Assembly: GCA_028689995.1 (NCBI GenBank)
Contig: JAQVCB010000015.1
Location: 5,866-38,164 of the forward strand
From: Candidatus Gastranaerophilales bacterium
Lineage (GTDB): Bacteria; Cyanobacteriota; Vampirovibrionia; Gastranaerophilales; UBA9579
DNA length: 32,299 nt
Reading direction: 5' to 3'
The notes beneath the pieces are model-generated. The model was not told the DNA's origin, did not search any database, and saw only the letters and a list, made by a program, of their open reading frames with translations. The translations under genes were made by a program, and so were the position numbers. Every line of letters begins with the position of its first letter. Position 1 is the first letter of the stretch. Positions 9,379 through 25,945 of the stretch are shown here, one piece after another.

Positions 9379-9399
9379 AATACATCCGGGTTTTAAAAA

Positions 9400-9975
9400 A
9401 TGAGTAATAAAGCAGTTTTCTTTGACAGAGATGGTGTTCTTAATGTTGATACAGATTATATCAGCTTGATCAGTTCTGTGGAATTATATGATGGAGCTGC
9501 TGATATAATTGCATATTGCAAAAATCTTGGTTATTGGACATTCATAGTTACCAATCAGCCAATAGTGGCAAGAGGTATCATTTCAGAAGAGGAATTAATT
9601 AAGTTCAATTTTGATTATAAGACACTTTTGCTTAAGCAGAATTGCAGGGCAGAGATTGATGAAATATTTTACTGCACGCATCACCCTGAAGCAGATGTTG
9701 AAAAATACAGAATATTATGTGATTGTAGAAAACCTAAACCAGGTCTTCTTATCAAGGCAATTGAAAAATACAGTATTGATCCGTCAAAAAGTTTTATGGT
9801 AGGTGATAGAATCTCAGATATAATAGCCGGATTTCTTGCAGGTTGTAAAACTATACAGTATAAATCCGGGAAACATCTTGAACCAATGATAAAAACAGAT
9901 CTTAATATTCCTGAAAATATACAGCCTGATTATATAATCGACAGGATTTCTGATTTAAGGAAGATAATTGTATGA
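9400..9975 (+). CDS. gmhB: D-glycero-D-manno-heptose 1,7-bisphosphate phosphatase-like HAD phosphatase
   Basis: FFDRDGVLNVDTDYI, TNQPIVARG, CTHHPEADVEKYRILCDCRKPKPGL (zinc-loop-like), MVGDRISDIIAG. Confidence 0.85.
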   Translation: MSNKAVFFDRDGVLNVDTDYISLISSVELYDGAADIIAYCKNLGYWTFIVTNQPIVARGIISEEELIKFNFDYKTLLLKQNCRAEIDEIFYCTHHPEADVEKYRILCDCRKPKPGLLIKAIEKYSIDPSKSFMVGDRISDIIAGFLAGCKTIQYKSGKHLEPMIKTDLNIPENIQPDYIIDRISDLRKIIV

Positions 9976-10694
9976 CTTATGCGATGATCTTATGTGCGGG
10001 ATTTGGTACCAGGCTTAATGAGTTAACAAAAAATTCACCAAAGCCGATGCTAAAACTTGGAGATAAACCTATTCTGGAATATACAATTGAGCATTTGAAA
10101 AGGCATGGAATAAAGGATATTATTATCAACCTTCATTACCTTGCTGATCATATTACTTCTCACTTTAAAGACGGCAGCAGTCTTGGAGTAAATATAATTT
10201 ACAGTTATGAAGAATATCCTCTTGGAACATCAGGAGCAGTTAAAAAAGTCCAGAATATTCTGTCAGAAACTGACAATTTTCTTATTTTATATGGAGATGT
10301 AGTTACAAATCAGAATTATACCGAGTTTATAAATTTTCATAAGTCTAAAACAAATGCTGTAGGCACAATAATTATTCATGAAAGAGATAAATCCAACAGT
10401 ATTGTTGAAATAGATACTGATAATAAAATTTTAAAATTTCTTGAAAGGCCGGTAGAGTCTGAATTAGAATTAAAAAAGCAGAACTGGGTAAATTCGGGAT
10501 TATACTGTTTTAACAAAGAAATTTTAAATCTAATTCCTGATGGTATTAGTGATTTTCCAAAAGATATTTTTCCAAAATTATTACAGACTGAGAGTTTATA
10601 TGGATTCCCTTTAAACGGTTATCGTTGTGCTGTTGACTCATCTGAAAGATATTTTATGTTACAATCGGATTATAATAATGGGATCGTTTTCTGA
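9972..10694 (+). CDS. Sugar-phosphate nucleotidyltransferase (HddC/RmlA-like)
   Basis: MILCAGFGTRLNELTKNSPKPMLKLGDKPILEYTIEHL, LYGDVVTN; 4-nt ATGA overlap with upstream gene. Confidence 0.88.
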   Translation: MTYAMILCAGFGTRLNELTKNSPKPMLKLGDKPILEYTIEHLKRHGIKDIIINLHYLADHITSHFKDGSSLGVNIIYSYEEYPLGTSGAVKKVQNILSETDNFLILYGDVVTNQNYTEFINFHKSKTNAVGTIIIHERDKSNSIVEIDTDNKILKFLERPVESELELKKQNWVNSGLYCFNKEILNLIPDGISDFPKDIFPKLLQTESLYGFPLNGYRCAVDSSERYFMLQSDYNNGIVF

Positions 10695-10706
10695 GGATTT
10701 TAAATA

Positions 10707-11348
10707 ATGGATTTAAAGGGTAAAATTGAGCAAAATTATTTGGAATTTACAAATATAATAAAAATGGCTGAATTTAGCAACGGATTGGAAGATATTCCTG
10801 CTGAAGAATGGTTTAAAATTGTTTTAAGCAGCTTAAATACTATTAAATTGTCGAAAAAGAAACTCTTCTTTCTTGGAAATGGAGCAAGCGCATCCATATC
10901 TGCTCATTTTGCTGCTGATTTTACTAAAAATGGTCTTATTCCATCGTTTTGTAATACGGAAGGAGCACTTTTAACCTGCTTTAGTAATGATTATTGTTAT
11001 GAAGATGCTTATATGGAGATGTTGAAAATAATAATGTCTGATGGTGATGGTTTAATTGCTGTTAGCAGCTCAGGGACATCTAAAAATATCGTTAATGCAG
11101 CAAATTTTGTAAAAGAAAATTTCAAAACAAGTCCAGTTATAACATTATCTGCATTTAATCCTGATAATGCTCTCAGAAAGATTGGGAATTTTAATCTCTA
11201 CCTTGCTGCAAATGATTATAATTATGCTGAATCAGGGCATGCATACTATCTTCATCTGTTGACAGATTTATTCTGTAATCAGAAAGAATATATCTCCAGG
11301 CAAATATCAACAATATTAATGGCTATTAATGAGGTTAGACAATCATAA
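10707..11348 (+). CDS. gmhA: SIS-domain phosphoheptose isomerase-like protein
   Basis: FLGNGASASISAHFAADFTKNG, AVSSSGTSKNIVNAANFVK, ESGHAYYLHLLTDLFC. Confidence 0.8.
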   Translation: MDLKGKIEQNYLEFTNIIKMAEFSNGLEDIPAEEWFKIVLSSLNTIKLSKKKLFFLGNGASASISAHFAADFTKNGLIPSFCNTEGALLTCFSNDYCYEDAYMEMLKIIMSDGDGLIAVSSSGTSKNIVNAANFVKENFKTSPVITLSAFNPDNALRKIGNFNLYLAANDYNYAESGHAYYLHLLTDLFCNQKEYISRQISTILMAINEVRQS

Positions 11349-12443
11349 ATGCAGGATAAATACAGAATAGATAATCATAAATTGATATTTCATCCTGATA
11401 GAGTTGCTCAATGGCAATCAGGATACAAAAACTGGGAAACGGCAAAAAAAATTTATCCTATTTATATGGAAATATCTCCTGTAGGTTATTGTAATCACAG
11501 GTGTATTTTTTGTGCTAAAGATTATATCGGGTATAAAAACAGGGAAATACCTTTTGACGTTTTAAAAAATCGTTTAAGTGAGATAGCTGAGCTTGGCATT
11601 AAAAGTGTAATGTTTGCAGGGGAAGGGGAATCAACATTATACAAACGTTTACCGGAAATTATTGAACATTGTATAAAAATAGGCATAGATACTGCGTTGA
11701 CAACTAATATGGTGCCATTTAACGAAAAAAATACAGAGGCTTTTGTAAAAAATTGTAAGTGGATTAAAGTTAGTATAAATGCCGGAAATTCTGAAACTTA
11801 TGCAAAAATTCACGGTACAAATGAAAATAATTTTAATATGGTTATAAACAATATGAAACGGGCAGTTTCCTTAAAAAAGGAAAAGGGGTATTCCTGTACT
11901 CTTGGAGCACAGATACTGCTCCTTCCCGATAATCACGATACAGTGCTTGAACTTGCTCAAATAACAAAAGAAGCCGGATTTGATTATCTTGTTGTAAAAC
12001 CATACTCTCAGCATTTATCCAGTAATACATATAAATACAAAGATATTAGCTATTCGAAGTATCTTTATTTGGATGAGCAATTAAAGTCCTATAATTCAGA
12101 CAATTTCAAGATAATATTTAGAAAGCAAACAATGAACAAGCTTTCTGATCCCGATGATAGATATTCAAAATGCAGAGCAGTTCCGTTTTTATGGGGATAT
12201 ATAATGGCTGATGGAAGTGTATATGGCTGTAGTTCGTATTTGGAAAATGATAAATTCTGTTATGGAAATATTAATGAAAATAGTTTTCAGGATATATGGG
12301 AATGTGATAGAAGAAAAGACTGTTATGAATTTGTAAAAGATAAAATGAATGCTGTAAATTGCAGAAAAAACTGTCGAATGGATGAGATTAACAGGTATTT
12401 AAGTGAGCTTGAAAATCCGGGTGAGCATGTAAACTTTATATAG
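11349..12443 (+). CDS. Radical SAM protein with SPASM-like C-terminal Cys cluster
   Basis: GYCNHRCIFCAKDY (CX3CX2C); C-terminal CRAVPFLWGYIMADGSVYGCSSYLENDKFCYGNI...DIWECDRRKDCYEF...CRKNCRMDE; ends in HVNFI; start abuts upstream stop. Confidence 0.88.
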   Translation: MQDKYRIDNHKLIFHPDRVAQWQSGYKNWETAKKIYPIYMEISPVGYCNHRCIFCAKDYIGYKNREIPFDVLKNRLSEIAELGIKSVMFAGEGESTLYKRLPEIIEHCIKIGIDTALTTNMVPFNEKNTEAFVKNCKWIKVSINAGNSETYAKIHGTNENNFNMVINNMKRAVSLKKEKGYSCTLGAQILLLPDNHDTVLELAQITKEAGFDYLVVKPYSQHLSSNTYKYKDISYSKYLYLDEQLKSYNSDNFKIIFRKQTMNKLSDPDDRYSKCRAVPFLWGYIMADGSVYGCSSYLENDKFCYGNINENSFQDIWECDRRKDCYEFVKDKMNAVNCRKNCRMDEINRYLSELENPGEHVNFI

Positions 12444-12454
12444 CAGGAAAACCA

Positions 12455-13993
12455 ATGTTTATAAAAGACAAAATCATTGATATAAATGAGTTAAAAAGTT
12501 ATTCAGTTATGCAAAAAAACCAGAAAAAAAATCTGGTACTTTGTCAGGGGCATTTTAATATTATTCATCCCGGACATTTAAGGTTTCTTGAATTTGTACA
12601 ACAGCAAGGAGATATTCTTATTGTTGCTGTTCAAGGAATAAACTGGCTTGAAGAAAAAAATAAATCTGTCTTTTTCGATGAAAAGGAACGGGCAAAAAGT
12701 GTTGCATCACTTCATAATGTTGATAAAGTAATTATTTTCAACGATATATCAATATTGGATGTAATTAAGGCAGTTAAACCCGATGTATATGTTAGGGGCG
12801 AAGAATTTAGCGATCAAATTCAACATATAAAAACTGAAATTGATCTTGTTGAAAAATTTGGAGGTAAGGTAGCATTTAGTGCAGGACAGGTAGAATATAC
12901 TTCTTCAAGTTTTCTGGATGATGATTTATCTGATCAGGATGCTAAAAACAGAAATCTTTTTAAGTCAGCTCTTAATCGGCAGAATATATCAATTTCTACG
13001 CTGAAAAATTATTGCAGTTCATTTGAAAAAGCAAATGTACTTGTTATCGGGGATACCATGGTAGATCATTATATTGCCTGTGATGCACTTGGTATGAGTG
13101 CAGAAGCTCCAATACTTAATATAAGGGAGCTTGAAGCAAAGAGCTTTGTTGGAGGCGCAGCAGTAGTATCAAGGCATGTTAAGGCTCTTGGTGCAAAATG
13201 CTATTATATATCAGCTATAGGAGATGATGATCCGGGCCGCTTTGTTCAAAATGAATTAAATAAAGATGATATTATAACTGAATTAATAATTGATAGTACC
13301 CGTCAGACAACTTTTAAAATCAGGTATATGGTTGGTAGTCAAAAAATAATAAGAGTTTCAAGACTTCAGGAACATCATATCAGTCAAAAAATACAGGATC
13401 AAATCCTGAATTATATAAGTTCACTTGCTAATAAGCTAGATGGCATTATAATGAGCGATTTTAACTACGGGACGATAACTCCTTACCTTATAAGTCAGAT
13501 TTATGAAATCTCAAATCGTTATGGTATAAAGCTTTTTGGAGATTCACAAAGCAGCAGTCAGATAGGTGATGTAAAAAAATTCATCAATTTTGATCTCATT
13601 ACACCTACTGAAAGAGAGGCTCGCATAGCACTTGGAGATAATTATAGTGGTCTTGAAAAAATTGCTATGACCTTGCTTGAAAAAACAAAAGTTAAAAATC
13701 TTGTAATAACATTGGGTGAAAATGGGTTTTTGGCCTATGAAAATCTTCCAAAAAATGGAGATAAAATAGTAAAATCACAACATTTTCCGGCATTGACTGT
13801 TAATCCGCCGGATGTGGTAGGTGCAGGTGATTCATTACTATCAGCATATAGTCTATCAATGTGTAGAGGGGCTAATTCTATGGAGGCATCAGCTATTGCT
13901 AATATTGTTGCTTCTATTGCGGTAAATAAAGTTGGAAATATTCCGGTTAAAGTTGATGAAGTTCAAAAATGGATTGACAAATTTGGAAAATAA
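12455..13993 (+). CDS. HldE-like bifunctional protein: N-terminal cytidylyltransferase-like domain plus C-terminal PfkB-type heptose kinase-like domain
   Basis: N-terminus LCQGHFNIIHPGHLRFLEF (HxGH); C-terminal VLVIGDTMVDHYIACDALGMSAEAPILNIRELEAKSFVGGAAVVSRHV and NPPDVVGAGDSLLSAYSLSM. Confidence 0.88.
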   Translation: MFIKDKIIDINELKSYSVMQKNQKKNLVLCQGHFNIIHPGHLRFLEFVQQQGDILIVAVQGINWLEEKNKSVFFDEKERAKSVASLHNVDKVIIFNDISILDVIKAVKPDVYVRGEEFSDQIQHIKTEIDLVEKFGGKVAFSAGQVEYTSSSFLDDDLSDQDAKNRNLFKSALNRQNISISTLKNYCSSFEKANVLVIGDTMVDHYIACDALGMSAEAPILNIRELEAKSFVGGAAVVSRHVKALGAKCYYISAIGDDDPGRFVQNELNKDDIITELIIDSTRQTTFKIRYMVGSQKIIRVSRLQEHHISQKIQDQILNYISSLANKLDGIIMSDFNYGTITPYLISQIYEISNRYGIKLFGDSQSSSQIGDVKKFINFDLITPTEREARIALGDNYSGLEKIAMTLLEKTKVKNLVITLGENGFLAYENLPKNGDKIVKSQHFPALTVNPPDVVGAGDSLLSAYSLSMCRGANSMEASAIANIVASIAVNKVGNIPVKVDEVQKWIDKFGK

Positions 13994-14009
13994 AAAGAGG
14001 AATTTGCAG

Positions 14010-14804
14010 TTGGAGAGAAAATTTGTAACAAATTTAAGAAAACAACTTGTTAAAATGCATCAAAAAGGGCCTCATTTTGGTTCCGCTCTTTCTGCTATTG
14101 ATATAATATCGGTGCTTTATTTTAATATAATGAATATACCTTCAGCTCATCATCCTGACAGAGATAGATTTATTCTTAGCAAAGGTCATTCAGTTTCTGC
14201 ATTATATACAGTACTTGCTGAAAAAGGATTTATAAATAAAGAAAAGCTTGATGAATATTTGGTTAATGGCAGTACTTTATTTGGACATCCAAAGAAAGAT
14301 AGTGTTCCAGGAATAGAAGCATCTACTGGATCACTTGGACATGGGCTTCCAATAGCTTCCGGCATGGCTATTGCTGCAAAAAATGACAAAAAAAATTATA
14401 AAATATTTGTATTAATGGGAGATGGAGAGTGTCAGGAAGGCAGTATTTGGGAAGCAGCCATGCTAGCCTCAAGGTTAAAATTGGATAATCTGGTTGTAAT
14501 TATTGATGCAAATAATCTTCAAGGTTTCGATATAGTTGAAAATGTTCAGCCAATTTCAACATTTAAAGCAAAATGGGAAGCATTTGGCTGGAATGTTAAA
14601 GAATCAAACGGACATGACCTGAATAAACTTACTGAGATTCTTTCCAATATACCTTTTAAAGCTGAAAAGCCATCGGTATTAATTGCACATACAATAAAAG
14701 GAAAAGATATTGCAATTGCTGAAAATAAAATGGAATGGCATTATTTTTCTGTCTCAAAAGATAAAGCAGATGCATTTATTGAGGAGCTTAACGAAAAAAT
14801 ATGA
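14010..14804 (+). CDS. Transketolase, N-terminal (ThDP-binding) subunit
   Basis: MHQKGPHFGSALSAIDIISVLYF, DRFILSKGHSVSALYTVLAEKGF, GSLGHGLPIASGMAIAAK, MGDGECQEGSIWEAAMLA. In-frame TTG at 14010 after AGAGG is a more plausible start than 13932. Confidence 0.9.
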   Translation: MERKFVTNLRKQLVKMHQKGPHFGSALSAIDIISVLYFNIMNIPSAHHPDRDRFILSKGHSVSALYTVLAEKGFINKEKLDEYLVNGSTLFGHPKKDSVPGIEASTGSLGHGLPIASGMAIAAKNDKKNYKIFVLMGDGECQEGSIWEAAMLASRLKLDNLVVIIDANNLQGFDIVENVQPISTFKAKWEAFGWNVKESNGHDLNKLTEILSNIPFKAEKPSVLIAHTIKGKDIAIAENKMEWHYFSVSKDKADAFIEELNEKI

Positions 14805-15727
14805 GGCATAGTTTCATAAAAAGACTTATAGAACTTGCAAAAGAAGATGAAAATATTTATCTTTTATCTTCTGATACTGGTTATACAATTCTTGAGGAAT
14901 TTATAAAATTATTTCCCGAGAGATATCTGAATATTGGAATATCTGAATCTAATATGATCGGTGTTGCGGCAGGGCTTGCAATGAGCGGGAAGACCGTTTT
15001 TGCTTATGCTATAGTTCCTTTTATTACTATGAGATGTTTTGAGCAGATAAGGGTTGATCTTTGTTATCAGAATCTGCCTGTTAAACTTGTAGGAATTGGA
15101 GGAGGATTAACATATGGTCCTGCAGGCCCAACACATCATTCAATTGAGGATATTGGTATTATGAGCTGTCTGCCTAATATGACTATTATTAATCCGGGTG
15201 ATCCTTTTGAAGTTAAAAAAGCTGTTGAGGCTTCATTAAATCTTAAAGGGCCATGTTATTTTAGATTGGGCAAAAGTGGAGAACCTGTTATACATAATGA
15301 GTCAAAATGTTTTGAAATAGGTAAAGGTATAAAAGTCCTGGAAGGGAAAGATATATCGATTATAGTAACAGGGAATATGCTGGAGACAGGATTGAAAGTA
15401 TCTCAAATGCTTCAGGATCAGGAAATTAATCCGGAATTGATAAGTATGCACACTATAAAACCTATTGATAAAGATTTAATTCTTGAGAGTGCCAAAAAAT
15501 GTAAATTTATGGTGACAATAGAAGAACATAATATTATTGGAGGATTAGGAAGTCAGGTTTCCGGTATTTTAACAGATAATAACTTACATGTTAGAATTAA
15601 AAGATTTGCAATACCTGATGAATATGTAGAGATAGCAGGTAGTCAGGATTATTTGAGAAATATTTACGGATTAACAGCAGAACAAATTTTCAATAGTATA
15701 AAGGATTTATTAAAGAATTATGAATAA
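14801..15727 (+). CDS. Transketolase, C-terminal subunit
   Basis: LSSDTGYTI, NIGISESNMIGVAAGLAMSGKTVFAYAIVPFITMRCFEQIRVDLCYQNLPVKLVG; ATGA overlap with N subunit. Confidence 0.9.
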   Translation: MRHSFIKRLIELAKEDENIYLLSSDTGYTILEEFIKLFPERYLNIGISESNMIGVAAGLAMSGKTVFAYAIVPFITMRCFEQIRVDLCYQNLPVKLVGIGGGLTYGPAGPTHHSIEDIGIMSCLPNMTIINPGDPFEVKKAVEASLNLKGPCYFRLGKSGEPVIHNESKCFEIGKGIKVLEGKDISIIVTGNMLETGLKVSQMLQDQEINPELISMHTIKPIDKDLILESAKKCKFMVTIEEHNIIGGLGSQVSGILTDNNLHVRIKRFAIPDEYVEIAGSQDYLRNIYGLTAEQIFNSIKDLLKNYE

Positions 15728-16814
15728 AATTACTAGAAAAACCGAGTTTACTCGTCTTTGGAACAGGGCCAGAACTTTATTTTATATTCTTTCTATAAAA
15801 GCATTTAATAAAAAGCCCTATCCATTCTACGTGAATCTGGTTATTAACAGCAGATGTAATCTGAATTGCGCTTATTGTTTTGGTCATTATTCACAAAGAC
15901 AGACACCCGACTGGAAATTAGAAGATTTAAAAAAGTTAATTGACAATCTGTATAAAAAAGGAACAAGATACATCCTGGTTCAAGGGGGAGAACCATTATT
16001 ACATAATGATCTTGGTGAAATTTTCAAATACATATACGAAAAAGGGATTGTAACAGCAATAGTTACGAATGGACAATTTCCGGAAAGAATCAAGAAAATA
16101 CCGGAAATATCATTACTTGATAACATATGTTTTTCACTTGACGGCGGCAAAGAAGGAAATGATATTGTAAGAGGCAAGGGTTGTTTTGATAAGGTAATGG
16201 AATCTATTGAAGCTGTTAAAGAGTTTCATAAAGTTCCGATTCGTATAAACTCGACTATATCAAAGTATGTTGTTAATGATATTGACTTCATGGCAGAATT
16301 TGTTAAAAAAAATAAAATTGAGTGGGGTATAAATTATTTATTTAAAGGTAATGAAGTTTTAGGAGAAGAAGATCTTGCTCCTACAGCAGATGAAATAATT
16401 GAATATCAACGGAAGATTCTTGAATACAAAAGAAAAGGTTATCCTATTTTTACAACTACCAAAATACTTAATTATGTACTTAATTGGCCTGTTGACTACA
16501 GACAAAAGTATCTAAATTACGATGAATCATCTAAAAAGTTGGGTAATAAAGCCATTAAATGTCAATATGGCTTTTATGAAATAGTTATAGATGAAGATGG
16601 ATTGGTATATCCCTGTCAGGGAATGCAGGGTTGCTTTGACGCAAAGAACATTCACGAAGTTGGTTTTGATGAAGCATTCAAACATCTTGAAACAAAACCA
16701 TGTTATACCTGTTATCTTCCTTCTCTAATTAATACATCTGCTATGATAAATTGGGATTTTAATGTAATTGGAGAGACAGTCTTTGAAACCTTTAAAAACA
16801 GGTTTCAGCTTTAA
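15720..16814 (+). CDS. Radical SAM/SPASM-type protein
   Basis: VINSRCNLNCAYCFGHY (CX3CX2C), LVQGGEPLLHND, FSLDGGKEGND; C-terminal CQYGFYEIVIDEDGLVYPCQGMQGCFD...CYTC. Confidence 0.88.
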   Translation: MNKITRKTEFTRLWNRARTLFYILSIKAFNKKPYPFYVNLVINSRCNLNCAYCFGHYSQRQTPDWKLEDLKKLIDNLYKKGTRYILVQGGEPLLHNDLGEIFKYIYEKGIVTAIVTNGQFPERIKKIPEISLLDNICFSLDGGKEGNDIVRGKGCFDKVMESIEAVKEFHKVPIRINSTISKYVVNDIDFMAEFVKKNKIEWGINYLFKGNEVLGEEDLAPTADEIIEYQRKILEYKRKGYPIFTTTKILNYVLNWPVDYRQKYLNYDESSKKLGNKAIKCQYGFYEIVIDEDGLVYPCQGMQGCFDAKNIHEVGFDEAFKHLETKPCYTCYLPSLINTSAMINWDFNVIGETVFETFKNRFQL

Positions 16815-16825
16815 CCAAACAGCTT

Positions 16826-16908
16826 TTAAGATATTTTCTCGAAGAAAAATATGTTATCATTTCCATGTTTTAAAATTGCTTCAGGTTTTAAGTTTTTATT
16901 CTCAATTA
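16826..16908 (-). pseudogene. C-terminal remnant of glycosyltransferase gene at left edge of the IS
   Basis: Reverse-strand frame VIENKNLKPEAILKHGNDNIFFFEKIS followed by TAA (16826-16828), open up to the IS end, same strand as the N-terminal remnant on the other side. Confidence 0.5.
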
Positions 16909-17918
16909 CAGGAGTTACGCAACATAAGATAAAGCATTATCATCATTGAATTTCACAGAGTAAACATTCTTCAAATAATCCTGACGAGCAGCTTCTATAC
17001 TCTTGTCAGGATATTTGTTTTTCAAGAATAAAAAAGCTTCCATACAGGCCTGTATATGATTAATTTGAGCTTTTAAACTTCTTGAAGAACATTCTTCCAG
17101 GTGTAAATATGACTTTAAGTTTCTGAATATTGTCTCAATAATCCATCGTTTTCGGTAGATTTTCCAACCCGAATGACTTTTAATTGGCTTTTCTAAATTT
17201 GTCATTATGTATCTGTTGCAGTGTTTTGCAATCTGTACTGTATGATAAATTCCTCTTGCCTTTCCATACAGGCTTTTTCCTCCGAAAAACTTGTGCGTTT
17301 GAACTTGTTGTTTTTCAAATATTTTATTTGATTTACATATGGTTAAATACTTCCAACCAAAGGAGTTGATAAGGTTTACATTTTTACAAGCCATATACCC
17401 ACAGTCAAATAATACTATTTCTGGTTTAAGACCTGCTTCGTATAGCTTTTTAAGTTCTTCTCTAATTACTTCATTTTTTGTACCTCTTTCTTTTTCCCAA
17501 ATAATATCTGCAAGATTATATATTTTATTGCCATGTACATAGATTATCTTAATTAAAGTATAGCCTTTAATCGCCTTATTTATTGATGAGTTCCAGACAT
17601 ACCTCACACCTTCTATATTTTTAGAAAATGATTTGTTGATTGATGTATCATCAAAGATTAATTGGCCTCCTTTTGGAAGGTTTTCAATCTTCGTTTCAGT
17701 CTTCACAGCATTATTTGATAGGAATCTTGTTAATTTATCATGACTAACATTTTCAACTTTGCACGCTGACTTATGGCAAGAAAATTTGCCTTCTTCTGAT
17801 AATAGTGCCATTCTGTAAGCATAATTAAGTTTCATAATAAAACCTGACATTCTTTTCAAAAAAAGGAAAGTCAGGTTTCTCTTTTTAAAATATTTTTAAT
17901 TATTTTGCGTAACTCCTG
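16909..17918 (-). mobile_element. IS4-type insertion sequence, about 1010 bp, 14-bp perfect terminal inverted repeats CAGGAGTTACGCAA
   Basis: CAGGAGTTACGCAA at 16909-16922 and its reverse complement TTGCGTAACTCCTG at 17905-17918 bracket one transposase ORF. Confidence 0.93.
16915..17859 (-). CDS. IS4-type DDE transposase
   Basis: LIFDDTSINKS (D), IVLFDCGYM (D), YRKRWIIETIFRNLK fits the IS4 YREK signature Y-(2)-R-(3)-E-(6)-K. Confidence 0.9.
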   Translation of the reverse strand: MKRMSGFIMKLNYAYRMALLSEEGKFSCHKSACKVENVSHDKLTRFLSNNAVKTETKIENLPKGGQLIFDDTSINKSFSKNIEGVRYVWNSSINKAIKGYTLIKIIYVHGNKIYNLADIIWEKERGTKNEVIREELKKLYEAGLKPEIVLFDCGYMACKNVNLINSFGWKYLTICKSNKIFEKQQVQTHKFFGGKSLYGKARGIYHTVQIAKHCNRYIMTNLEKPIKSHSGWKIYRKRWIIETIFRNLKSYLHLEECSSRSLKAQINHIQACMEAFLFLKNKYPDKSIEAARQDYLKNVYSVKFNDDNALSYVA

Positions 17919-18244
17919 TTTCCGGCTAAGTAGGCCGCAAATATTGATATAACACCGGAAATAATTGATAAAAGTCTTAAAGTTATATCATTATCTCCAA
18001 AGAACTTCATCCAAAAATGCAGTAAAAGATAATAAAATGGTGCCTGCAAACTATAACCGTCAAGAAATAATCTTTTTAAAAGTTTAAACGGAAAAGACAT
18101 TCTGGCTTCATAATGGCAATATAGTTCATCCCACCACATAAAAGGCTTATTAATATCAATTAGTCTTAAATATATCCCCAGTAATATGACCAGAGAAATA
18201 ATCAACCCATATTTATATTTGATGACTAAATTTCTTTCAGACAA
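17919..18244 (-). pseudogene. N-terminal fragment of a GT-C (ArnT/PMT-like) glycosyltransferase, truncated by the IS
   Basis: YGLIISLVILLGIYLRLIDINKPFMWWDELYCHYEARMSFPFKLLKRLFLDGYSLQAPFYYLLLHFWMKFFGDNDITLRLLSIISGVISIFAAYLAGN; WWDE resembles the first-loop acidic motif of PMT/ArnT enzymes; frame runs into the IS and stops. Confidence 0.75.
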
Positions 18245-18565
18245 AAACTTAGAACGAGTTTGGTTAAAGCCTCCAACGCCTTGCCAAGCAAGCCGTTTCG
18301 GCTTTAGCCAGCACTCCCGCTTCGCACGAGCTTTTACAGTTATAATTGGATTTTACAGTTTTTAACAAGACAGGCTCTTAGAGATCGTCTTATTATAAAC
18401 TATTAAAAACGATGGAGACATTATAAATTTGTAATAAAATTAATTTGAATATGTTAGATTGTTAGGTAAGCTAATGTTATATGATAGGAATATCAACAAA
18501 GTTTAATACAAAATCCTATATTATTGCTGGTTTTATGTGTACAAATTTTAATTAAGAGTTTCAAA

Positions 18566-19657
18566 ATGAGAATATTCAATATAGATTATGCAGATATATT
18601 CGATAAAGTCATATATAACTATGCCTCATTATCAAGTAAATTATGTAAAGATAAGTCATTTCTACCTATTAGATATAATCTGGAATTAACTTATAAATGC
18701 AACCTGAACTGTAATTACTGTTATATTGGTGAAAATAAAAATATTAATGAGTTAACTACGGAAGAATGGTTTAATGTAATTGACCAAATTCCTCCATTTG
18801 GTCTTATAACACTTGTAGGTGGTGAGCCTTTAATTAAAAAAGACTTTGATAAAATATTTGATCGGGCTGTTAAGAAACATAAAGTTAATATAGTATCAAA
18901 CGCAACTCTTCTTACAGATGAGCATATAAAGTCTTTTGTTAAAAAAAAGTTAACTTTAATTGGAGTATCAATTGACGGTATAGGTAAAAAACACGATTTA
19001 AACAGGAATAAACCCGGTATTTTTGATAAAATTACTGAAAATCTGGAAAAGCTAAAAATAGCAAAAGGTAATAAGCTTTATCCTTTAATAGATATTAAAA
19101 CACTTGTTTTAGACAATAATCTTGATGATCTTCCTGAAATTTATAAGCTGGCCAGTTATTTTAATGCTGATTTTTTAACCCTGTCTTTTCTCAGAGCAGA
19201 TAATTTTCTTCAGAATTCCAGCATTAAGAAAGAAGAATTTGAAAAAGATTTTTATAATACTGTATATCCAATTAAAAAATATTTTGATCTTGAACACTTT
19301 AAGAAAGTTTATAAGCAGGTCAAAACCCTTTCAAAAAAAGGTAAAACAAAATTAAGACTTTATCCCAGATTTAATGATAAAAACGAACTTGATCAGATTG
19401 TCAGATTTTATACAATGCCTGAAAATATTGACATCAAAGATATATACTATCCCTGTCTTCATCCATGGGTTAATGTTTCAATAAGTCCAAATGGAGATGT
19501 TTATCCTTGTTTGTGCTATAAAGTCGATAATATTAGAGAAAACAGTTTTAAAGAAATTTGGAACAATTCGAAATATAGAAAATTCAGAAGATATCTTTCA
19601 CAAGAGAAGGTTTTTAAGTCCTGTCAGGCTTGTTGTCAGTTAAGAGTTAAATATTAG
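18566..19657 (+). CDS. Radical SAM/SPASM-type protein
   Basis: LTYKCNLNCNYCYIGE (CX3CX2C), LVGGEPLIKKDF, GVSIDGIG; C-terminal CLHPWVNVSISPNGDVYPCLCYKVDNIRENSFKEIWN...CQACCQL. ATG at 18566 likelier than 18524. Confidence 0.88.
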   Translation: MRIFNIDYADIFDKVIYNYASLSSKLCKDKSFLPIRYNLELTYKCNLNCNYCYIGENKNINELTTEEWFNVIDQIPPFGLITLVGGEPLIKKDFDKIFDRAVKKHKVNIVSNATLLTDEHIKSFVKKKLTLIGVSIDGIGKKHDLNRNKPGIFDKITENLEKLKIAKGNKLYPLIDIKTLVLDNNLDDLPEIYKLASYFNADFLTLSFLRADNFLQNSSIKKEEFEKDFYNTVYPIKKYFDLEHFKKVYKQVKTLSKKGKTKLRLYPRFNDKNELDQIVRFYTMPENIDIKDIYYPCLHPWVNVSISPNGDVYPCLCYKVDNIRENSFKEIWNNSKYRKFRRYLSQEKVFKSCQACCQLRVKY

Positions 19658-19658
19658 T

Positions 19659-21146
19659 ATGGTTAAAATGGATATAAAAAAAATACTTTTAGTTAATTTA
19701 CCGGAAGATGGTGAAGTTGCCGACTTTTATACACCGAAATATGTTCTTTCATCTTTCCATGCTTACCCTCCTCTTGGAGTATTGTATATTGCTACAGCAA
19801 TAAAAGATGAATATCCGGTTAAAATAATTGATACTCACGCTTTAAATTATTCAATAGAACAAACTGTAGATGCTATAGTTAATGAATCACCTGAGTTATT
19901 AGGTATTTCTTGTCCAACACTACGTCTTTATACAATGTTAGAAATAATTAAGAGAGTTAAAGTTAAACTGCCAAATCTTGTTATAGTAGTTGGTGGACCT
20001 CATGTATCAATTTATCCTGTAGAAACAATTAATCTGCCGGGAGTAGATTATGCAATAGCAGGACAGGGAGAAATTACTTTTCTTAAACTTATTGATATTC
20101 TGTCCGGAAAAGTTTCTTCTAATCTCAAAGATTTAACAGGATTGATTTTTAAAGAAGAGGGCAGGGTTATACAAAATTCGGTTAATTATGATATCTCCCT
20201 GGATAATATAAAAATGCCTGATAGAAGCCTTTTAAATTATGACCTTTACTATACAGCAGCAGATAGTACAGAACAGATTGTGACTATGATTTCTTCAAGA
20301 GGTTGTCCTTTTCAGTGTATTTTCTGTGATGTTCAGGACAAGAAATATCGTTGGAGAAGCGCAAAAAATGTTGTAGATGAGATGGAACATATAGCAAATA
20401 CTTTTGATAATCCGCTTATAAATATTTTTGACGATACATTTAATCTTCTAAAAGATAGAGTTCTTGAAATTTGTGAGGAAATACAGAAGAGAAATTTAAA
20501 GGTCAAATGGACAACCAGAGCAAGAGTTCATCCTCTTGATGAAGAAATGATTGCTGCTATGAAAGCTGCAGGATTAAAGAGGATACACTTTGGCGTTGAA
20601 TCAGGTTCAGACAATACACTTAAAAAAATAAAAAAAGGTGTTAAAAGAGAGCAAATTGAAAAAGCTTTTGAGCTTTGTAAAAAATATAAAATAGATACTC
20701 TTGCCTACTTTGTCATAGGTTTTGACTGGGAAACAAAGAAAGATATAAACGAAACAATTTCTTTTATTAAAAAGATTAAACCTGACTATATAGCACCAAG
20801 TATTCTTTATCCACTCGCAAAGACTGAAGTATACGATGAGATGGTAAAAAATGGTAAGATAGATAGCGATTACTGGTACAAATTTGCTGTAAATCCAACC
20901 AAAGATTTTTCTTTACCTCTATTTAGAACCGAAAAAACCCAGAAATATTTAAGCCGAAAAATTGATGAAATTTATCTTACTTTTTATCTTTCACCCGGAT
21001 TCGTTCTAAAAAATCTAAAATCTAAAGGTAAAAATGAATTTGGCTTTTTATTCAAAATAAAGTTAGGTTTTTTAATAATAAAGTCTTATTTTTTAAATCT
21101 TTTCGCAGAAATAACCTGTTTTGGCGAAGGAAATGATATTAAATAA
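19659..21146 (+). CDS. B12-binding-domain radical SAM protein
   Basis: N-terminal Rossmann-like domain (PPLGVLYIATAI, VVGGPHVSIYP, YAIAGQGE) then SSRGCPFQCIFCDVQDKKYRWRSAKNV and IHFGVESGSDNTLKKIKKG. Confidence 0.92.
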   Translation: MVKMDIKKILLVNLPEDGEVADFYTPKYVLSSFHAYPPLGVLYIATAIKDEYPVKIIDTHALNYSIEQTVDAIVNESPELLGISCPTLRLYTMLEIIKRVKVKLPNLVIVVGGPHVSIYPVETINLPGVDYAIAGQGEITFLKLIDILSGKVSSNLKDLTGLIFKEEGRVIQNSVNYDISLDNIKMPDRSLLNYDLYYTAADSTEQIVTMISSRGCPFQCIFCDVQDKKYRWRSAKNVVDEMEHIANTFDNPLINIFDDTFNLLKDRVLEICEEIQKRNLKVKWTTRARVHPLDEEMIAAMKAAGLKRIHFGVESGSDNTLKKIKKGVKREQIEKAFELCKKYKIDTLAYFVIGFDWETKKDINETISFIKKIKPDYIAPSILYPLAKTEVYDEMVKNGKIDSDYWYKFAVNPTKDFSLPLFRTEKTQKYLSRKIDEIYLTFYLSPGFVLKNLKSKGKNEFGFLFKIKLGFLIIKSYFLNLFAEITCFGEGNDIK

Positions 21147-21178
21147 TTAAATTATAGTTGGGAGTTTATAAATTAAAA

Positions 21179-22600
21179 ATGGAATCTGCAAAAAAAATTG
21201 TAATAATTGGAGCAGGACCTTCAGGGTTAGCTGTTGCTTTAGATCTGGTCGGTAATTCAGATTTCAATATCACCATACTTGAATCAGAAAAAAATGTGGG
21301 AGGATTATGCAGAACGCTTGAACATAAAGGCATTCGTTTTGATATAGGTCCCCACAGACTTTCTCCTCAACTTCCTGAAATAGTTAAAATCGTTCAAGAT
21401 CTTTTAGGTGATGATTTATTAGCAAAAGAAAATTTGCATGGACTGTATTTTGACGAAATATTATATAATTATCCTCCTAAATTTTCTGATTTTTTAAATT
21501 TGAATTCAGTTAAAAATGCATTTATATTTGGTAAAAGTTTTATATTAAGACAATTTTTGAATATTATCTGTTTATCTTTTAGCAGCAAAAAAGAGAAATC
21601 TTTTGAAGATATTCTGACCGGACGTTTTGGAAAATGTTTTTACAACAGGCTTATATTGCCTATGGCATTGAAAGTCTGGGGAACTTCCGATCTTGATAAG
21701 GACTTTGTTGATACAAGAATTACAATTCCTACTTTTAGCAAGCTATTAAAGAAGATTTTTATAAAAAATGCCGCAATAAATGATAAGATTTTTTATTACC
21801 CTGTTAAAGGTTTTAGCCAGATATGGGATAAGATAGCAGAAAAATTAAGCCGAAATGGTCATTTAATAGAGCTTAATGTAGAAATAGAAAGAATAGAAGC
21901 AGATACATTAGACAAAGGACCATATAAAATTTATTATTTGAAAGATGGTGAAAAAAAAGTAGCAGAAGCTGATATTCTGGTAAGTACAATTTCAAATAAG
22001 GTTCTTTTAAATTATTTTTCAGAAACAAGCCTTACAAAGCCGATAATGCATCTGAGTAATCAATTTTCATCCAGAACGGTAAGGATAGGTGTGTTTTTGG
22101 TTAAAGCCTTTGATCTTCCTGTAAGAGTTACTATTTTCCCTGAACAAAAGCATATTTTTAACAGAATATCAGTAATGAACCATTTTGCTGATCTGGATTA
22201 TCCTGAAGGACAAACTGTGTTAATGATAGATGTTATTTATCATACAGATAGTAAGTATGCAGATATGTCCAAAGAAGAATTTAATGAATATCTTATTAAG
22301 TATGTCCTTGAGCTTGGTTGGTTTAAACAGGAAGATATAACTGATGTATTCAGCGTAATAGTACCTTATGCTTATCCTGTTATGAGTAAAAGCAGATATC
22401 AGGCACAGGACGAGCTGGAAAACTACTTTGCGTCGACTGATATAATATTATGTGGACGAGAAGCATCTTCAGATTATAATAATGCACATAATGCTATGGC
22501 AAAAGGACTTTTAACAGCAAAATATATAAGCGGAAAAATCAAATATGACGAATATATAAAACTGTCAAGAGAAATGGGTCGTTTACCTGTCAGAGAATAA
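21179..22600 (+). CDS. FAD/NAD(P)-binding flavoprotein of the amine oxidase / protoporphyrinogen oxidase-like superfamily
   Basis: KIVIIGAGPSGLAVALDL, ESEKNVGGLCRTLEHKGIRFDIGPHRLSPQ, YYPVKGFSQIWDKIAEKL, late ILCGREASSDYNNAHNAMAKGLLTAKYI. Confidence 0.82.
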   Translation: MESAKKIVIIGAGPSGLAVALDLVGNSDFNITILESEKNVGGLCRTLEHKGIRFDIGPHRLSPQLPEIVKIVQDLLGDDLLAKENLHGLYFDEILYNYPPKFSDFLNLNSVKNAFIFGKSFILRQFLNIICLSFSSKKEKSFEDILTGRFGKCFYNRLILPMALKVWGTSDLDKDFVDTRITIPTFSKLLKKIFIKNAAINDKIFYYPVKGFSQIWDKIAEKLSRNGHLIELNVEIERIEADTLDKGPYKIYYLKDGEKKVAEADILVSTISNKVLLNYFSETSLTKPIMHLSNQFSSRTVRIGVFLVKAFDLPVRVTIFPEQKHIFNRISVMNHFADLDYPEGQTVLMIDVIYHTDSKYADMSKEEFNEYLIKYVLELGWFKQEDITDVFSVIVPYAYPVMSKSRYQAQDELENYFASTDIILCGREASSDYNNAHNAMAKGLLTAKYISGKIKYDEYIKLSREMGRLPVRE

Positions 22601-22612
22601 GGAACTAAAAAA

Positions 22613-24028
22613 ATGAACAGAAAAGTATTATTAATATATCCACCAGGACAATTAATGAACAGGGAAGATCGCTGTCAAGTTCCTTCAAAAGATGTTGTAA
22701 TAGCTCCTCCGCTTCCACCCGGAGATCTTATGTATATGGCTGCTGTTGCTGAAGAAACAGGTTATACTTGTAAAATAATTGATTATACTCTTAATAACAG
22801 TTCTGTTGATAATTTTGTCAAAGATTTAAAAGAATTTCAGCCGGATTATCTTGTTATAAGCATAACAACTCCAACAATAAAGAACGATCTAAAAGTTTGT
22901 TCAATTACGAAAAAGACAATTCCAGATATCCAGATAATTGCAAAAGGTGCTCATTTTCTTAAATTTAATACTCAGATATTGGAAGAATTTACTGATCTTG
23001 ATATGGCAATAAGGGGAGAAACTGAAATTACCTTTAAGGAAATTTTATCAGGAAAGTTAAAATCTGAAATTATGGGACTTACATGGCAAAGTCCTGATGG
23101 TCCACACAATAATCCGAACAGACCCTTTAATGAAGATCTTGATTCACTTCCATATCCAGCCAGACACCTTGTAAATAATACTATATATGTTAGACCTGAT
23201 AACGGGAAAATACAGGGCATAATTAAAGTATCACGAGGTTGTCCGTTTAATTGCTTCTTTTGTCTTGCTTCACCTGTTTCTGGAAGAAAAGTCAGGGTTA
23301 GAAGTGTTAATAATGTACTTGGCGAAATTAAACAATGTATGGAACTATACGGGATGAAAGATTTTCTCCTTTGGTCTGATATTTTTAATCTCGATAAAAA
23401 CTGGGTAATAGAGCTGTGTAATATTATTTTGGAATCAAAGTTAAAATTTAACTGGGCTACAAATACAAGAGTAGATACGATGGATATTGATACAGCAAAA
23501 TTAATGAAAAAGGCTGGCTGTACACTTGTAAGTGTTGGCGTGGAAAGTGGCAATCAGGAAATTCTTGAAAAAATGGGTAAGAAAACCGATCTAAATAAAA
23601 TCAAAGAAGCCTTTAAAATATTTAAAAAAGCAGATTTAAAGACTTTTGCTTATTATATTATTGGTCTTCCCTGGGATACAAGAGAAACAGTTGAGGATAC
23701 AATAAGGCTAGCTATTGAATTGGATAGTGATTTTGCAAATTTCTTTACTGCAACTGCATTTCCCGGAACAAGATTTTATGACTACGCTATAGAAAATAAT
23801 CTTTTTGAATCTGATATCGATAATTATGAATTATTTATGAATACATATCATTATCCGACTGTAAAAGGGCATTATTTATCAAAAGAAGAAATTGTTAAAT
23901 TACATAATAAAGCGGTGAAAAGATTTTTTCTCAGGCCAAACTATATTATAAAATGCTTATTTAGAATTCGTTCATTAAAAGAAATTCAAAATTATATTAA
24001 AGCAGGTCTTTCGGTATTAAGACATTAA
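22613..24028 (+). CDS. B12-binding-domain radical SAM protein
   Basis: APPLPPGDLMYMAAVAEETGY, AIRGETEITFKEI, KVSRGCPFNCFFCLASPVSGRKVRVRSVNNV, VSVGVESGNQEILEKMGK. Confidence 0.92.
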   Translation: MNRKVLLIYPPGQLMNREDRCQVPSKDVVIAPPLPPGDLMYMAAVAEETGYTCKIIDYTLNNSSVDNFVKDLKEFQPDYLVISITTPTIKNDLKVCSITKKTIPDIQIIAKGAHFLKFNTQILEEFTDLDMAIRGETEITFKEILSGKLKSEIMGLTWQSPDGPHNNPNRPFNEDLDSLPYPARHLVNNTIYVRPDNGKIQGIIKVSRGCPFNCFFCLASPVSGRKVRVRSVNNVLGEIKQCMELYGMKDFLLWSDIFNLDKNWVIELCNIILESKLKFNWATNTRVDTMDIDTAKLMKKAGCTLVSVGVESGNQEILEKMGKKTDLNKIKEAFKIFKKADLKTFAYYIIGLPWDTRETVEDTIRLAIELDSDFANFFTATAFPGTRFYDYAIENNLFESDIDNYELFMNTYHYPTVKGHYLSKEEIVKLHNKAVKRFFLRPNYIIKCLFRIRSLKEIQNYIKAGLSVLRH

Positions 24029-25149
24029 ATAAAATTAATATGCTGGGGAAGATAGCTGGAACTATCATCAAAAATCGCATTATTAGCTTTTAAATCCCGT
24101 AAAAATTCATTTACTTTATGTTGTAGACAAAGTGTGCCGCAGTCTTTTTTTGCGTCAAATTCGTCAGAAGTGATATATCTCATAACTTCCCAGTATCTGT
24201 CACTTTGCCAAATTTCCTTGAAGGATTTTTCGTTTATATTGCCTATATGGAATTTTTCTTTATATTTATCATTAAACAACATGCCGCAAGGGGCAATGAG
24301 ACCGGAACCTGACATCTGAATAATAAAAGGAGGTCCATAACATTTGGAATAGGTTCTTTTACCTTTGCTTTCAATTTTAGACCATTTTGCTTTTACAAGA
24401 TAATCTTTTGAAGAATAGTTTTCTGCCTCTTTTAATTTTTCCATAAGATTATCATCATACTTATCATATTGAACTCCTAATGAACCTTCTTCATCATCAG
24501 AGCAGTGTTTTATAACAAGATAATCTACATCTAAATTTTTTCCTAAAATTGCAAGAGGGATAATATCATCTATAAAATCAGGCAGTAAAACCATCTGAAG
24601 CCCGATAGTTACTTCGAGATTTCGTTTTCTTTTTATCTCGACTGATTTTTTGATTGTTTCAATTACTTTATTATAAGCTTCAATATTAACGCCATGTATA
24701 TAAGCATACCTTTCAGCAGTACCGGCAGAAATATTAAATCTTAAATATGTTAAAGCTGGTAAAATTTCTTCAAGTCTTTCATCTTTTAAAGCAAAGCCGT
24801 TTGTTCCCATTGCCATATCAAGACCATTTGCTTTTCCGTGCAAAATAGCATCATAAACATGCGGACTAAGTGAACTTTCACCATCACTGACAAAGCTTAC
24901 AGCCTTAACTCCAATTTCTGCGGCATCGTCCAAAAACCTGAAAATAACATCTTTAGATAGATTATAACCTTTATTTTCCTGCAAAGTGCTATAACAATAA
25001 ATACATCTATAAGAACAAGCTCTTGTTAAAGCACAATCTATTGTAATAGGAGCAATTTTATCACCATTTAACCAGGATTTTACGCGATCTTTATGCCACT
25101 GAAGTTTATGACCATCTAGAATAAGCTTCTCATTTGTTATTTTAGACAT
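24025..25149 (-). CDS. Radical SAM/SPASM-type protein, paralogue of the 11349-12443 protein
   Basis: LTRACSYRCIYCYSTLQ (CX3CX2C), similar architecture to 11349-12443 and same terminal H[VI]NFI; ATG at 25149 overlaps the GT2 stop. Confidence 0.88.
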   Translation of the reverse strand: MSKITNEKLILDGHKLQWHKDRVKSWLNGDKIAPITIDCALTRACSYRCIYCYSTLQENKGYNLSKDVIFRFLDDAAEIGVKAVSFVSDGESSLSPHVYDAILHGKANGLDMAMGTNGFALKDERLEEILPALTYLRFNISAGTAERYAYIHGVNIEAYNKVIETIKKSVEIKRKRNLEVTIGLQMVLLPDFIDDIIPLAILGKNLDVDYLVIKHCSDDEEGSLGVQYDKYDDNLMEKLKEAENYSSKDYLVKAKWSKIESKGKRTYSKCYGPPFIIQMSGSGLIAPCGMLFNDKYKEKFHIGNINEKSFKEIWQSDRYWEVMRYITSDEFDAKKDCGTLCLQHKVNEFLRDLKANNAIFDDSSSYLPQHINFI

Positions 25150-25945
25150 TTGCCGGTTCCTTTGTTCTTTCTTCAAAAGAATTTCTTCGGATATAAGTTA
25201 TAGACTCCCTGCAAAGTTTTTTATAATCTTTTCTTCTTGATTCAATGCTTTTTATATGAATATCATAAGCAAGATTTAAATATCCGCTCATTACTTTAAA
25301 GAAAGATTTGAAACTTAATGCTTTTGAATTGCCATTATTTCTTTTATTTAAAAAATTAGGGACTTCAGCAAAAAGATAACCTTTTCTTATCAGTTTAATA
25401 AGAAGTTCAGCCTGATAAAAAAAGCCAAAACTTCTTAATTCAATGCTATTTAGGATACATCTTCTATAAAATACAGTTCCATTTGTATAATTCAGATTTA
25501 TCATAAAAGACATATTGATAATAAAAGAATACAAAACTGAAATTGCACGCCTGAACCTGTTTCTTATTTCAGTATTTTGTATAAAGGGTACAATAATATC
25601 TACATAATTCATTAAATAAAAGTAAGTTAAAGCATCTTCAGGATCATTTTCATTATCACCCGGAAACATAACTACGATATCCTTGTCAGAATGTCTGACG
25701 GCTTCCCAAAATGAATATCCAATACCAAGGGGTTTTTCATGATGAATTACTTTTACAAGCGGATTTTCATTTGCAAATTTTTCAACCAATTCACCTGTCT
25801 TATCTGTACTACCGTCATTTATAACCATAATTTCGCCGTTGATTTTCAATTTCTCAAAAGCAAATAATGTTGTTTCAATAGCTTCTTGTATATTATTTGC
25901 TTCATTAAGCGCCGGCATTATGACAGTTAATGACAGTATATTCAT
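25142..25945 (-). CDS. GT2 family glycosyltransferase (dolichol-phosphate mannosyltransferase-like)
   Basis: LTVIMPALNEANNIQEAIETTL, MVINDGSTDKTGELVEKF, VMFPGDNENDPED. Confidence 0.9.
   Translation of the reverse strand: MNILSLTVIMPALNEANNIQEAIETTLFAFEKLKINGEIMVINDGSTDKTGELVEKFANENPLVKVIHHEKPLGIGYSFWEAVRHSDKDIVVMFPGDNENDPEDALTYFYLMNYVDIIVPFIQNTEIRNRFRRAISVLYSFIINMSFMINLNYTNGTVFYRRCILNSIELRSFGFFYQAELLIKLIRKGYLFAEVPNFLNKRNNGNSKALSFKSFFKVMSGYLNLAYDIHIKSIESRRKDYKKLCRESITYIRRNSFEERTKEPANV

Follow-up and report, generated by a model that had tools for sequence, protein, structure and literature searches.

What does a bacterial glycan locus make with six radical S-adenosylmethionine (SAM) enzymes? 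The question is raised by a stretch of 32,299 nucleotides (hereafter the window) on contig JAQVCB010000015.1 of a Candidatus Gastranaerophilales bacterium (assembly GCA_028689995.1), in which open reading frames (ORFs) for such proteins start at positions 11349, 15720, 18566, 19659, 22613 and 24025 (labeled rSAM1, rSAM2, rSAM3, B12-rSAM4, B12-rSAM5 and rSAM6). Comparison with related loci singles out rSAM1 and rSAM6, which occur with a split transketolase-type enzyme, a short-chain dehydrogenase/reductase (SDR) and, in this locus, divergent enzymes of the heptose type. I regard it as plausible, though short of probable, that this core, which recurs in several phyla, serves to build a surface glycan, often that of flagellin. 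The family membership, co-occurrence, gene fusion, flagellar context and altered transketolase site described below are read from sequence.

Six radical SAM genes in one glycan locus

All six proteins exceed the Pfam Radical_SAM (PF04055) cut-off and possess one CX3CX2C motif each, confirming a sequence-only reading of the window that had placed six such proteins within 14 kb (for rSAM3, 18566 is an internal ATG, and the ORF as called begins at a TTG at 18524). That reading was also correct in assigning B12-binding N-terminal domains (PF02310) to the proteins at 19659 and 22613, and in treating HemW as a separate gene (856–1989, minus strand). It further proposed four SPASM-like C-termini; Pfam SPASM matches were found for the proteins at 11349, 18566 and 24025, but rSAM2 has none, and shows only a pattern of four C-terminal Cys (residues 281, 299, 328 and 331).

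The source genome is a 2.99-Mb draft in 201 contigs (89% complete, 6% contaminated), with 45 PF04055 matches. When these 45 genes were placed at random, at least six fell within a 13.85-kb span in 3 of 20,000 placements, and the cluster is therefore not due to chance. The expectation of none or one radical SAM gene in a typical glycan locus is however wrong for this class, since related loci hold three or more.

A cassette conserved in a sister genus

In a sister genus of the same family (genome G001, locus L013), ten contiguous genes on the same strand, 60–78% identical to those of the window, are found in the order rSAM6, SDR, GmhB-like, HddC-like, GmhA-like, rSAM1, HldE-like fusion, TK-N, TK-C and rSAM2, where TK-N and TK-C are the two transketolase subunits. 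The nine genes from SDR to rSAM2 have the same order in the window (8377–16814). The window rSAM6 sits 7 kb beyond this cassette, on the opposite strand and overlapping the family-2 glycosyltransferase gene GT2a. The intervening DNA encodes a transposase of the IS4 type and a truncated glycosyltransferase, followed by rSAM3, the two B12-dependent-type radical SAM proteins (B12-rSAMs) and a flavin enzyme. For these last four the sister locus has no orthologous counterpart, and no orthologues of rSAM3 or the B12-rSAMs travel with the cassette in the other loci compared. An rSAM2 orthologue (78% identical) occupies the same position in the sister genus, and the identity is 33% in two further genomes. 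As judged by sequence, the conserved cassette thus includes rSAM1, rSAM6 and, only in the genera of the window and G001, rSAM2.

The suggestion that all six enzymes form one pathway is consequently very unlikely. Their physical clustering exceeds chance, and B12-rSAMs of the same broad type lie near rSAM6 in three other loci (L054, L085 and L086); these are however just 25–29% identical, the sister operon has rSAM1, rSAM2 and rSAM6 but neither rSAM3 nor the flavin enzyme gene, and an insertion sequence (IS) element with a gene remnant divides the window locus. I therefore rejected a single six-enzyme pathway, because rSAM3, B12-rSAM4 and B12-rSAM5, which lie beyond the IS element and the truncated gene, fail to follow the cassette. 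Gene-neighborhood conservation, proposed as a check, holds for rSAM1 and rSAM6, and for rSAM2 in two genera, but not for the other three. The dividing region (16915–18244) consists of the transposase and, beside it, a 114-residue GT39-like glycosyltransferase remnant.

rSAM1 and rSAM6 are related to sugar-acting enzymes

Across 39 members of the rSAM1/rSAM6 family seven Cys are invariant, three in the radical SAM motif and four in the C-terminus (C275, C294, C338 and C342). A full SPASM domain has two auxiliary clusters and seven or more C-terminal Cys. Four invariant Cys correspond to one cluster, and while the Cys-rich C-termini had been recognized correctly, "twitch" is therefore a more exact term than "SPASM" for both proteins. 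None of the other Cys is invariant, a pattern that speaks against an epimerase using a Cys hydrogen donor. The C-terminal motif H-x-N-F-I is found throughout the family, with single substitutions in two members, and the tree divides it into an rSAM1 and an rSAM6 clade, each fully supported.

The family profile matches the twitch domain of BtrN (E 3.5e-12) and the core of DesII (E 3.2e-15). An AlphaFold (AF2) model of rSAM1 from a 36-sequence input (pLDDT 89, pTM 0.88), which replaces a nine-sequence model (pLDDT 66) and its fold matches, has DesII as its best fold match in the PDB (E 3.9e-17), with SuiB and SkfB also among the high matches. Scores against the DesII family model TIGR04426 are 30.1 bits for rSAM1 and 31.5 bits for rSAM6, below the cut-off of 450. 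Together, these sequence and model comparisons point to sugar-acting radical SAM enzymes as the relatives of rSAM1 and rSAM6.

A split transketolase is the steadiest partner

A first scan of public genomes with rSAM1 yielded eight additional loci, making ten genomes with the window and G001; the hosts are Melainabacteria-type cyanobacteria, UBP16, ADurb.Bin243 and a relative, Sulfurimonas and Oligoflexia. The named rSAM1 orthologues nearest to that of the window include one from "Cyanobacteria bacterium UBA9971", with a Melainabacteria genome more distant, which makes a Melainabacteria-type cyanobacterium the probable host; rSAM1 was not found in any other of 289 genomes sampled in the window's class. 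One strong rSAM6 is present in each of the ten genomes (E < 1e-200), together with orthologues of the GmhB-, HddC-, GmhA- and HldE-like enzymes, an SDR and a transketolase of two subunits. Further family members were identified in sugar-biosynthesis loci on plasmids of Azospirillum oryzae and Solidesulfovibrio carbinolicus. In the phylum of Sulfurimonas (Campylobacterota), the family occurs in 14 of 249 genomes, with two members each; in one of these, G537, both are rSAM1. There, rSAM1, transketolase and HldE genes occur twice, 85 kb apart (loci L082 and L083), and rSAM6 is not detectable. Distant rSAM1 relatives (25–26% identical) are encoded in two phage records, LR756501.1 (323236–324246; a 735-kb phage) and MW202801.1 (19640–20701; a 40-kb Caudoviricetes), the latter match overlying an annotated glycosyltransferase.

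Partners were then counted in 22 fetched genomes with the rSAM1 family, by mapping the window proteins onto all fetched loci. In 21 of the 22 (G401 being the exception), a split transketolase is encoded no more than about 5 kb from an rSAM1-family gene, and an HldE-type fusion is found in 14. The transketolase, which the sequence-only reading does not mention, is thus a steadier partner of rSAM1 than the heptose genes and the steadiest of all. Of 13 genomes that have rSAM6, 12 also encode an orthologue of the SDR (57–75% identical; 62% in Azospirillum).

TK-N retains the thiamine motif (GDGE...QEG) and the His of the GHP motif, and TK-C the catalytic Glu. In nearly all cassette transketolases, however, the phosphate-binding loop is shortened and the Arg is replaced by Lys or missing, and both features are altered in the window TK-C; in six aligned housekeeping transketolases both loop and Arg are intact. 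In ordinary transketolases this loop (Ser/Thr) and Arg bind the substrate phosphate. The cassette enzymes divide into a clade whose members have the whole C-terminal domain (the window, G001 and the Campylobacterota flagellin loci) and a second whose members end after the pyrimidine domain. Most are separated from housekeeping copies in the tree, with moderate support for the overall split (75/71); that of Solidesulfovibrio lies beside the housekeeping copies, on a long branch. A separate housekeeping split transketolase is present in the source genome, and a housekeeping copy in most of the genomes compared. In Azospirillum, a thiamine enzyme pair of the pyruvate-dehydrogenase type takes the transketolase's place. 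Different thiamine enzymes repeatedly lie beside the same radical SAM family, an arrangement that suggests a role for thiamine chemistry in the pathway, and this chemistry looks functionally required. The source genome encodes a third split transketolase (G000:C2, locus L103), which shares 53% identity with the cassette TK-C and has its altered phosphate loop as well; no radical SAM gene was found within the 4 kb read.

Heptose-type enzymes and glycosyltransferase

The sequence-only reading proposed a modified heptose/glycan pathway, to be refuted by a lack of co-occurrence with the heptose genes. Co-occurrence is observed, in the 14 genomes noted above, but the heptose product is unproven, because the GmhA, HldE and HddC homologues score far below curated cut-offs. 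The NCBIfam models for the standard heptose pathway (GmhA, GmhB, HldE and HddC) are all under their cut-offs; for the HldE-like fusion the scores are 215 bits (cut-off 345) and 79 bits (cut-off 182). PDB matches of the HddC-like protein include 6jq8, a 6-deoxy-mannoheptose pathway protein. In eight Campylobacterota loci with the radical SAM pair and transketolase, no HldE was found within the stretch read, and heptose was therefore rejected as the defining partner. In two genomes from a different family of the window's phylum (L022 and L023), a nucleotidyltransferase-first HldE fusion occurs with GmhA-, GmhB- and HddC-like genes and no rSAM1 or rSAM6 within 20 kb; the fusion alone is thus not a marker of the module.

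GT2a and rSAM6 form one fused protein in two Oligoflexia loci, while in two Melainabacteria-type genomes the genes for GT2a, rSAM6 and SDR stand side by side (GT2a is fused to or adjoins rSAM6 in L029, L030, L052 and L053).

Flagellar context

Pfam searches of Campylobacterota loci place genes for flagellin and Maf glycosyltransferases on the flanks of the radical SAM and transketolase core. Many Campylobacterota have the core next to flagellin, Maf or FliS genes but lack heptose genes there, and in UBP16-type bacteria and Sulfurimonas it is adjoined by FliS, FlgN- and FliD-like genes. Flagellin is encoded in nine of the first ten genomes and a Maf-type protein in eight, the source genome being among both, with eight flagellin-domain and four MptE-like/Maf matches. 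PseB, PseC and PseF genes lie near the module in Solidesulfovibrio.

Other features of the locus

Neither B12-rSAM reaches a curated HpnJ, BchE or AprD4 equivalog cut-off, despite the B12-binding and radical SAM domains. The flavin enzyme has no match at E ≤ 1e-40 among 288 other genomes of the class. Tandem paralogous membrane proteins of about 170 residues, with no Pfam match, lie beside GT2a, rSAM6 and SDR in five genomes, and two DUF2304 proteins are similarly positioned in a Lawsonia plasmid glycan locus. In a Melainabacteria genome (L053:1–3712), a 1237-residue protein with EF-hand repeats, a candidate surface protein, adjoins GT2a and rSAM6. At 5050–6165, the window encodes a 371-residue ORF with several similar repeats, which by eye resemble Myb/SANT-type DNA-binding repeats.

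Features of the window and of related loci (window positions unless a locus is given; FAD, flavin adenine dinucleotide)
Feature	Position	Strand	Description
SDR	8377–9378	+	GalE/UDP-sugar epimerase-like; Pfam GDP_Man_Dehyd/Epimerase; below galE cut-off
GmhB-like HAD phosphatase	9400–9975	+	TIGR00213 140 bits (cut-off 149.6); syntenic orthologues
HddC/mannose-1-phosphate guanylyltransferase-like nucleotidyltransferase	9972–10694	+	PF00483; HddC model 109 bits (cut-off 300)
GmhA-like SIS isomerase	10707–11348	+	gmhA 53.6 bits (cut-off 209); orthologues in cassette
rSAM1	11349–12443	+	Single-cluster twitch domain; C-terminus HVNFI; PF04055, PF13186; clade r1 support 100/100
HldE-like fusion	12455–13993	+	Nucleotidyltransferase first, kinase second; PF01467, PF00294
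TK-N	13932–14804	+	Thiamine-binding subunit; PF00456; start uncertain, overlaps HldE; phylogenetically apart from housekeeping transketolase
TK-C	14801–15727	+	Pyrimidine-binding and C-terminal subunit; PF02779/PF02780; best PDB match 6yaj (E 1.5e-64)
rSAM2	15720–16814	+	End of cassette operon; PF04055
rSAM3	18566–19657	+	Radical SAM/SPASM; PF04055, PF13186; neighbor, cassette membership not supported
B12-rSAM4	19659–21146	+	BchE/HpnJ-like; PF02310, PF04055; neighbor, cassette membership not supported
FAD amine-oxidase-like protein	21158–22600	+	PF01593; neighbor
B12-rSAM5	22613–24028	+	HpnJ/AprD4-like; PF02310, PF04055; best PDB match AprD4 6fd2; neighbor
rSAM6	24025–25176	-	rSAM1 paralogue; twitch domain; C-terminus HINFI; PF04055, PF13186
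GT2a	25142–25945	-	Polyprenyl-phosphate glycosyltransferase-like; PF00535; overlaps rSAM6
Tandem membrane-protein pair	L013:15143–16160; L029:1836–2860; L030:6513–7568; L052:8990–10016; L053:3847–4877		

A possible pathway and its alternatives

Sugar-directed radical chemistry, as the sequence-only reading had it, is the best interpretation. From the features described above I infer possible substrates, step order, products and target, as follows. The GmhA-, HldE-, GmhB- and HddC-like enzymes would produce a nucleotide-activated higher sugar (C7 or similar), from whose carbinol carbons rSAM1 and rSAM6 would abstract hydrogen to yield carbonyls, with the auxiliary cluster, as in BtrN, accepting the electron. 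A two-carbon ketol may then be moved onto the carbonyl by the thiamine enzyme, and the resulting branched or chain-extended sugar would be reduced or epimerized by the SDR. In the window, GT2a would place this sugar on polyprenyl phosphate; in other loci its transfer to flagellin is probably the work of Maf-type enzymes. That, in several phyla, higher-carbon or branched sugars of flagellin and further surface glycans arise by radical SAM oxidation of an already activated sugar, followed by two-carbon extension or branching, is a possibility I put forward tentatively.

Several observations weigh against this scheme. No flagellar gene is found in the window (no flagellin, Maf or FliS by the module), and the Solidesulfovibrio transketolase retains canonical-looking phosphate residues. 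G537 has rSAM1 and transketolase twice without rSAM6, and G401, a fragmented draft, lacks a transketolase on the contig of rSAM1, so neither partner is absolute. The transketolase could also merely supply sedoheptulose or octulose phosphate, which is the main rival: a C7 or C8 ketose phosphate would enter the GmhA/HldE route, while the radical SAM pair separately oxidizes, deoxygenates or epimerizes the resulting nucleotide-sugar. This is likewise possible rather than likely. GmhA-, GmhB-, HddC- or HldE-like genes adjoin the transketolase in most loci, the GHP His is retained in the window TK-N, a transketolase is able to make octulose phosphate (PMC5854111), and octulose 8-phosphate and GDP-octose are used in lincomycin biosynthesis (PMC12945683). 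Yet the pair and transketolase occur without HldE in the eight Campylobacterota loci, most genomes already have a housekeeping transketolase, and the phosphate-binding residues of the cassette enzymes are altered.

The chemistry of the radical SAM pair can also be read differently. It is unlikely that, instead of dehydrogenating a sugar, rSAM1 and rSAM6 act like NeoN, DesII or AprD4 as epimerases, lyases or deoxygenases of sugars: the best fold match, DesII, does eliminate ammonia from a nucleotide-sugar (as the name of TIGR04426 has it), but the absence of an invariant Cys outside the seven ligands leaves no conserved thiol hydrogen donor such as NeoN uses, and the auxiliary cluster pattern resembles that of the oxidase BtrN. 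Many of the NCBIfam matches are to peptide or metalloenzyme maturases, and SuiB and SkfB are among the high fold matches, but all of these NCBIfam matches are far below cut-off, no precursor-peptide or leader-binding gene was recognized near the core, and the constant partners are sugar enzymes. It is very unlikely that the radical SAM proteins are maturases located in glycan loci by chance, and peptide maturation was set aside.

Relation to known systems

Each ingredient has precedents: radical SAM enzymes that act on sugars, transketolases in two chains, and islands of flagellin-glycan genes. BtrN (2-deoxy-scyllo-inosamine dehydrogenase, PDB 4m7s/4m7t) likewise has one auxiliary cluster with four Cys at similar spacing, and its profile similarity to the family is significant over this domain. 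It is a two-electron oxidase acting on an aminocyclitol, about 100 residues shorter, and is not known to have a transketolase or nucleotide-sugar context. DesII (TDP-4-amino-4,6-dideoxyglucose ammonia-lyase, PDB 8hzv/8hzy), similar in fold and core sequence, acts on a nucleotide-sugar, but is 16–18% identical, about 110 residues longer, and the family is far below its TIGR04426 cut-off. The two-chain architecture of the cassette transketolase is that of the Carboxydothermus hydrogenoformans split transketolase (6yaj), the best PDB match of TK-C; compared with it, the phosphate loop of the cassette versions is mostly shortened and the Arg replaced by Lys or missing, and many lack the whole C-terminal domain.

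The GDP-heptose (GmhA-HldE/HddA-GmhB-HddC) and lincomycin GDP-octose pathways use the same types of isomerase, kinase, phosphatase and nucleotidyltransferase as the window. Here, however, these enzymes are below cut-offs and the fusion is nucleotidyltransferase-first, while the standard heptose pathway has no radical SAM or transketolase pair; the GDP-octose pathway uses a transaldolase, unlike the cassette. Maf-dependent flagellin glycosylation islands (pseudaminic/legionaminic acid) resemble the module in that its relatives lie beside flagellin, Maf and FliS genes, but the sugar of the module apparently comes from radical SAM and thiamine enzymes, and not from a nonulosonic acid synthase. 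In a Campylobacter survey, phase-variable radical SAM genes of C. fetus are listed among glycan-type genes, with no function given (PMC6321876). No account of the combination found here turned up in the open-access papers searched, on radical SAM enzymes together with transketolase, flagellin glycosylation, heptose or GDP-heptose, a coverage outside which most subscription journals fall. The product of the cassette is apparently an undescribed sugar.

A radical SAM and transketolase module appears to recur in surface-glycan and flagellin-glycosylation loci of several phyla, and has an easy signature, a radical SAM pair ending in H-x-N-F-I beside a split transketolase. If the proposed pathway is true, bacterial sugar biosynthesis would gain a route that builds carbon skeletons, and unusual monosaccharides would be predicted on the flagella of cultivable bacteria, where they would be accessible to mass spectrometry.

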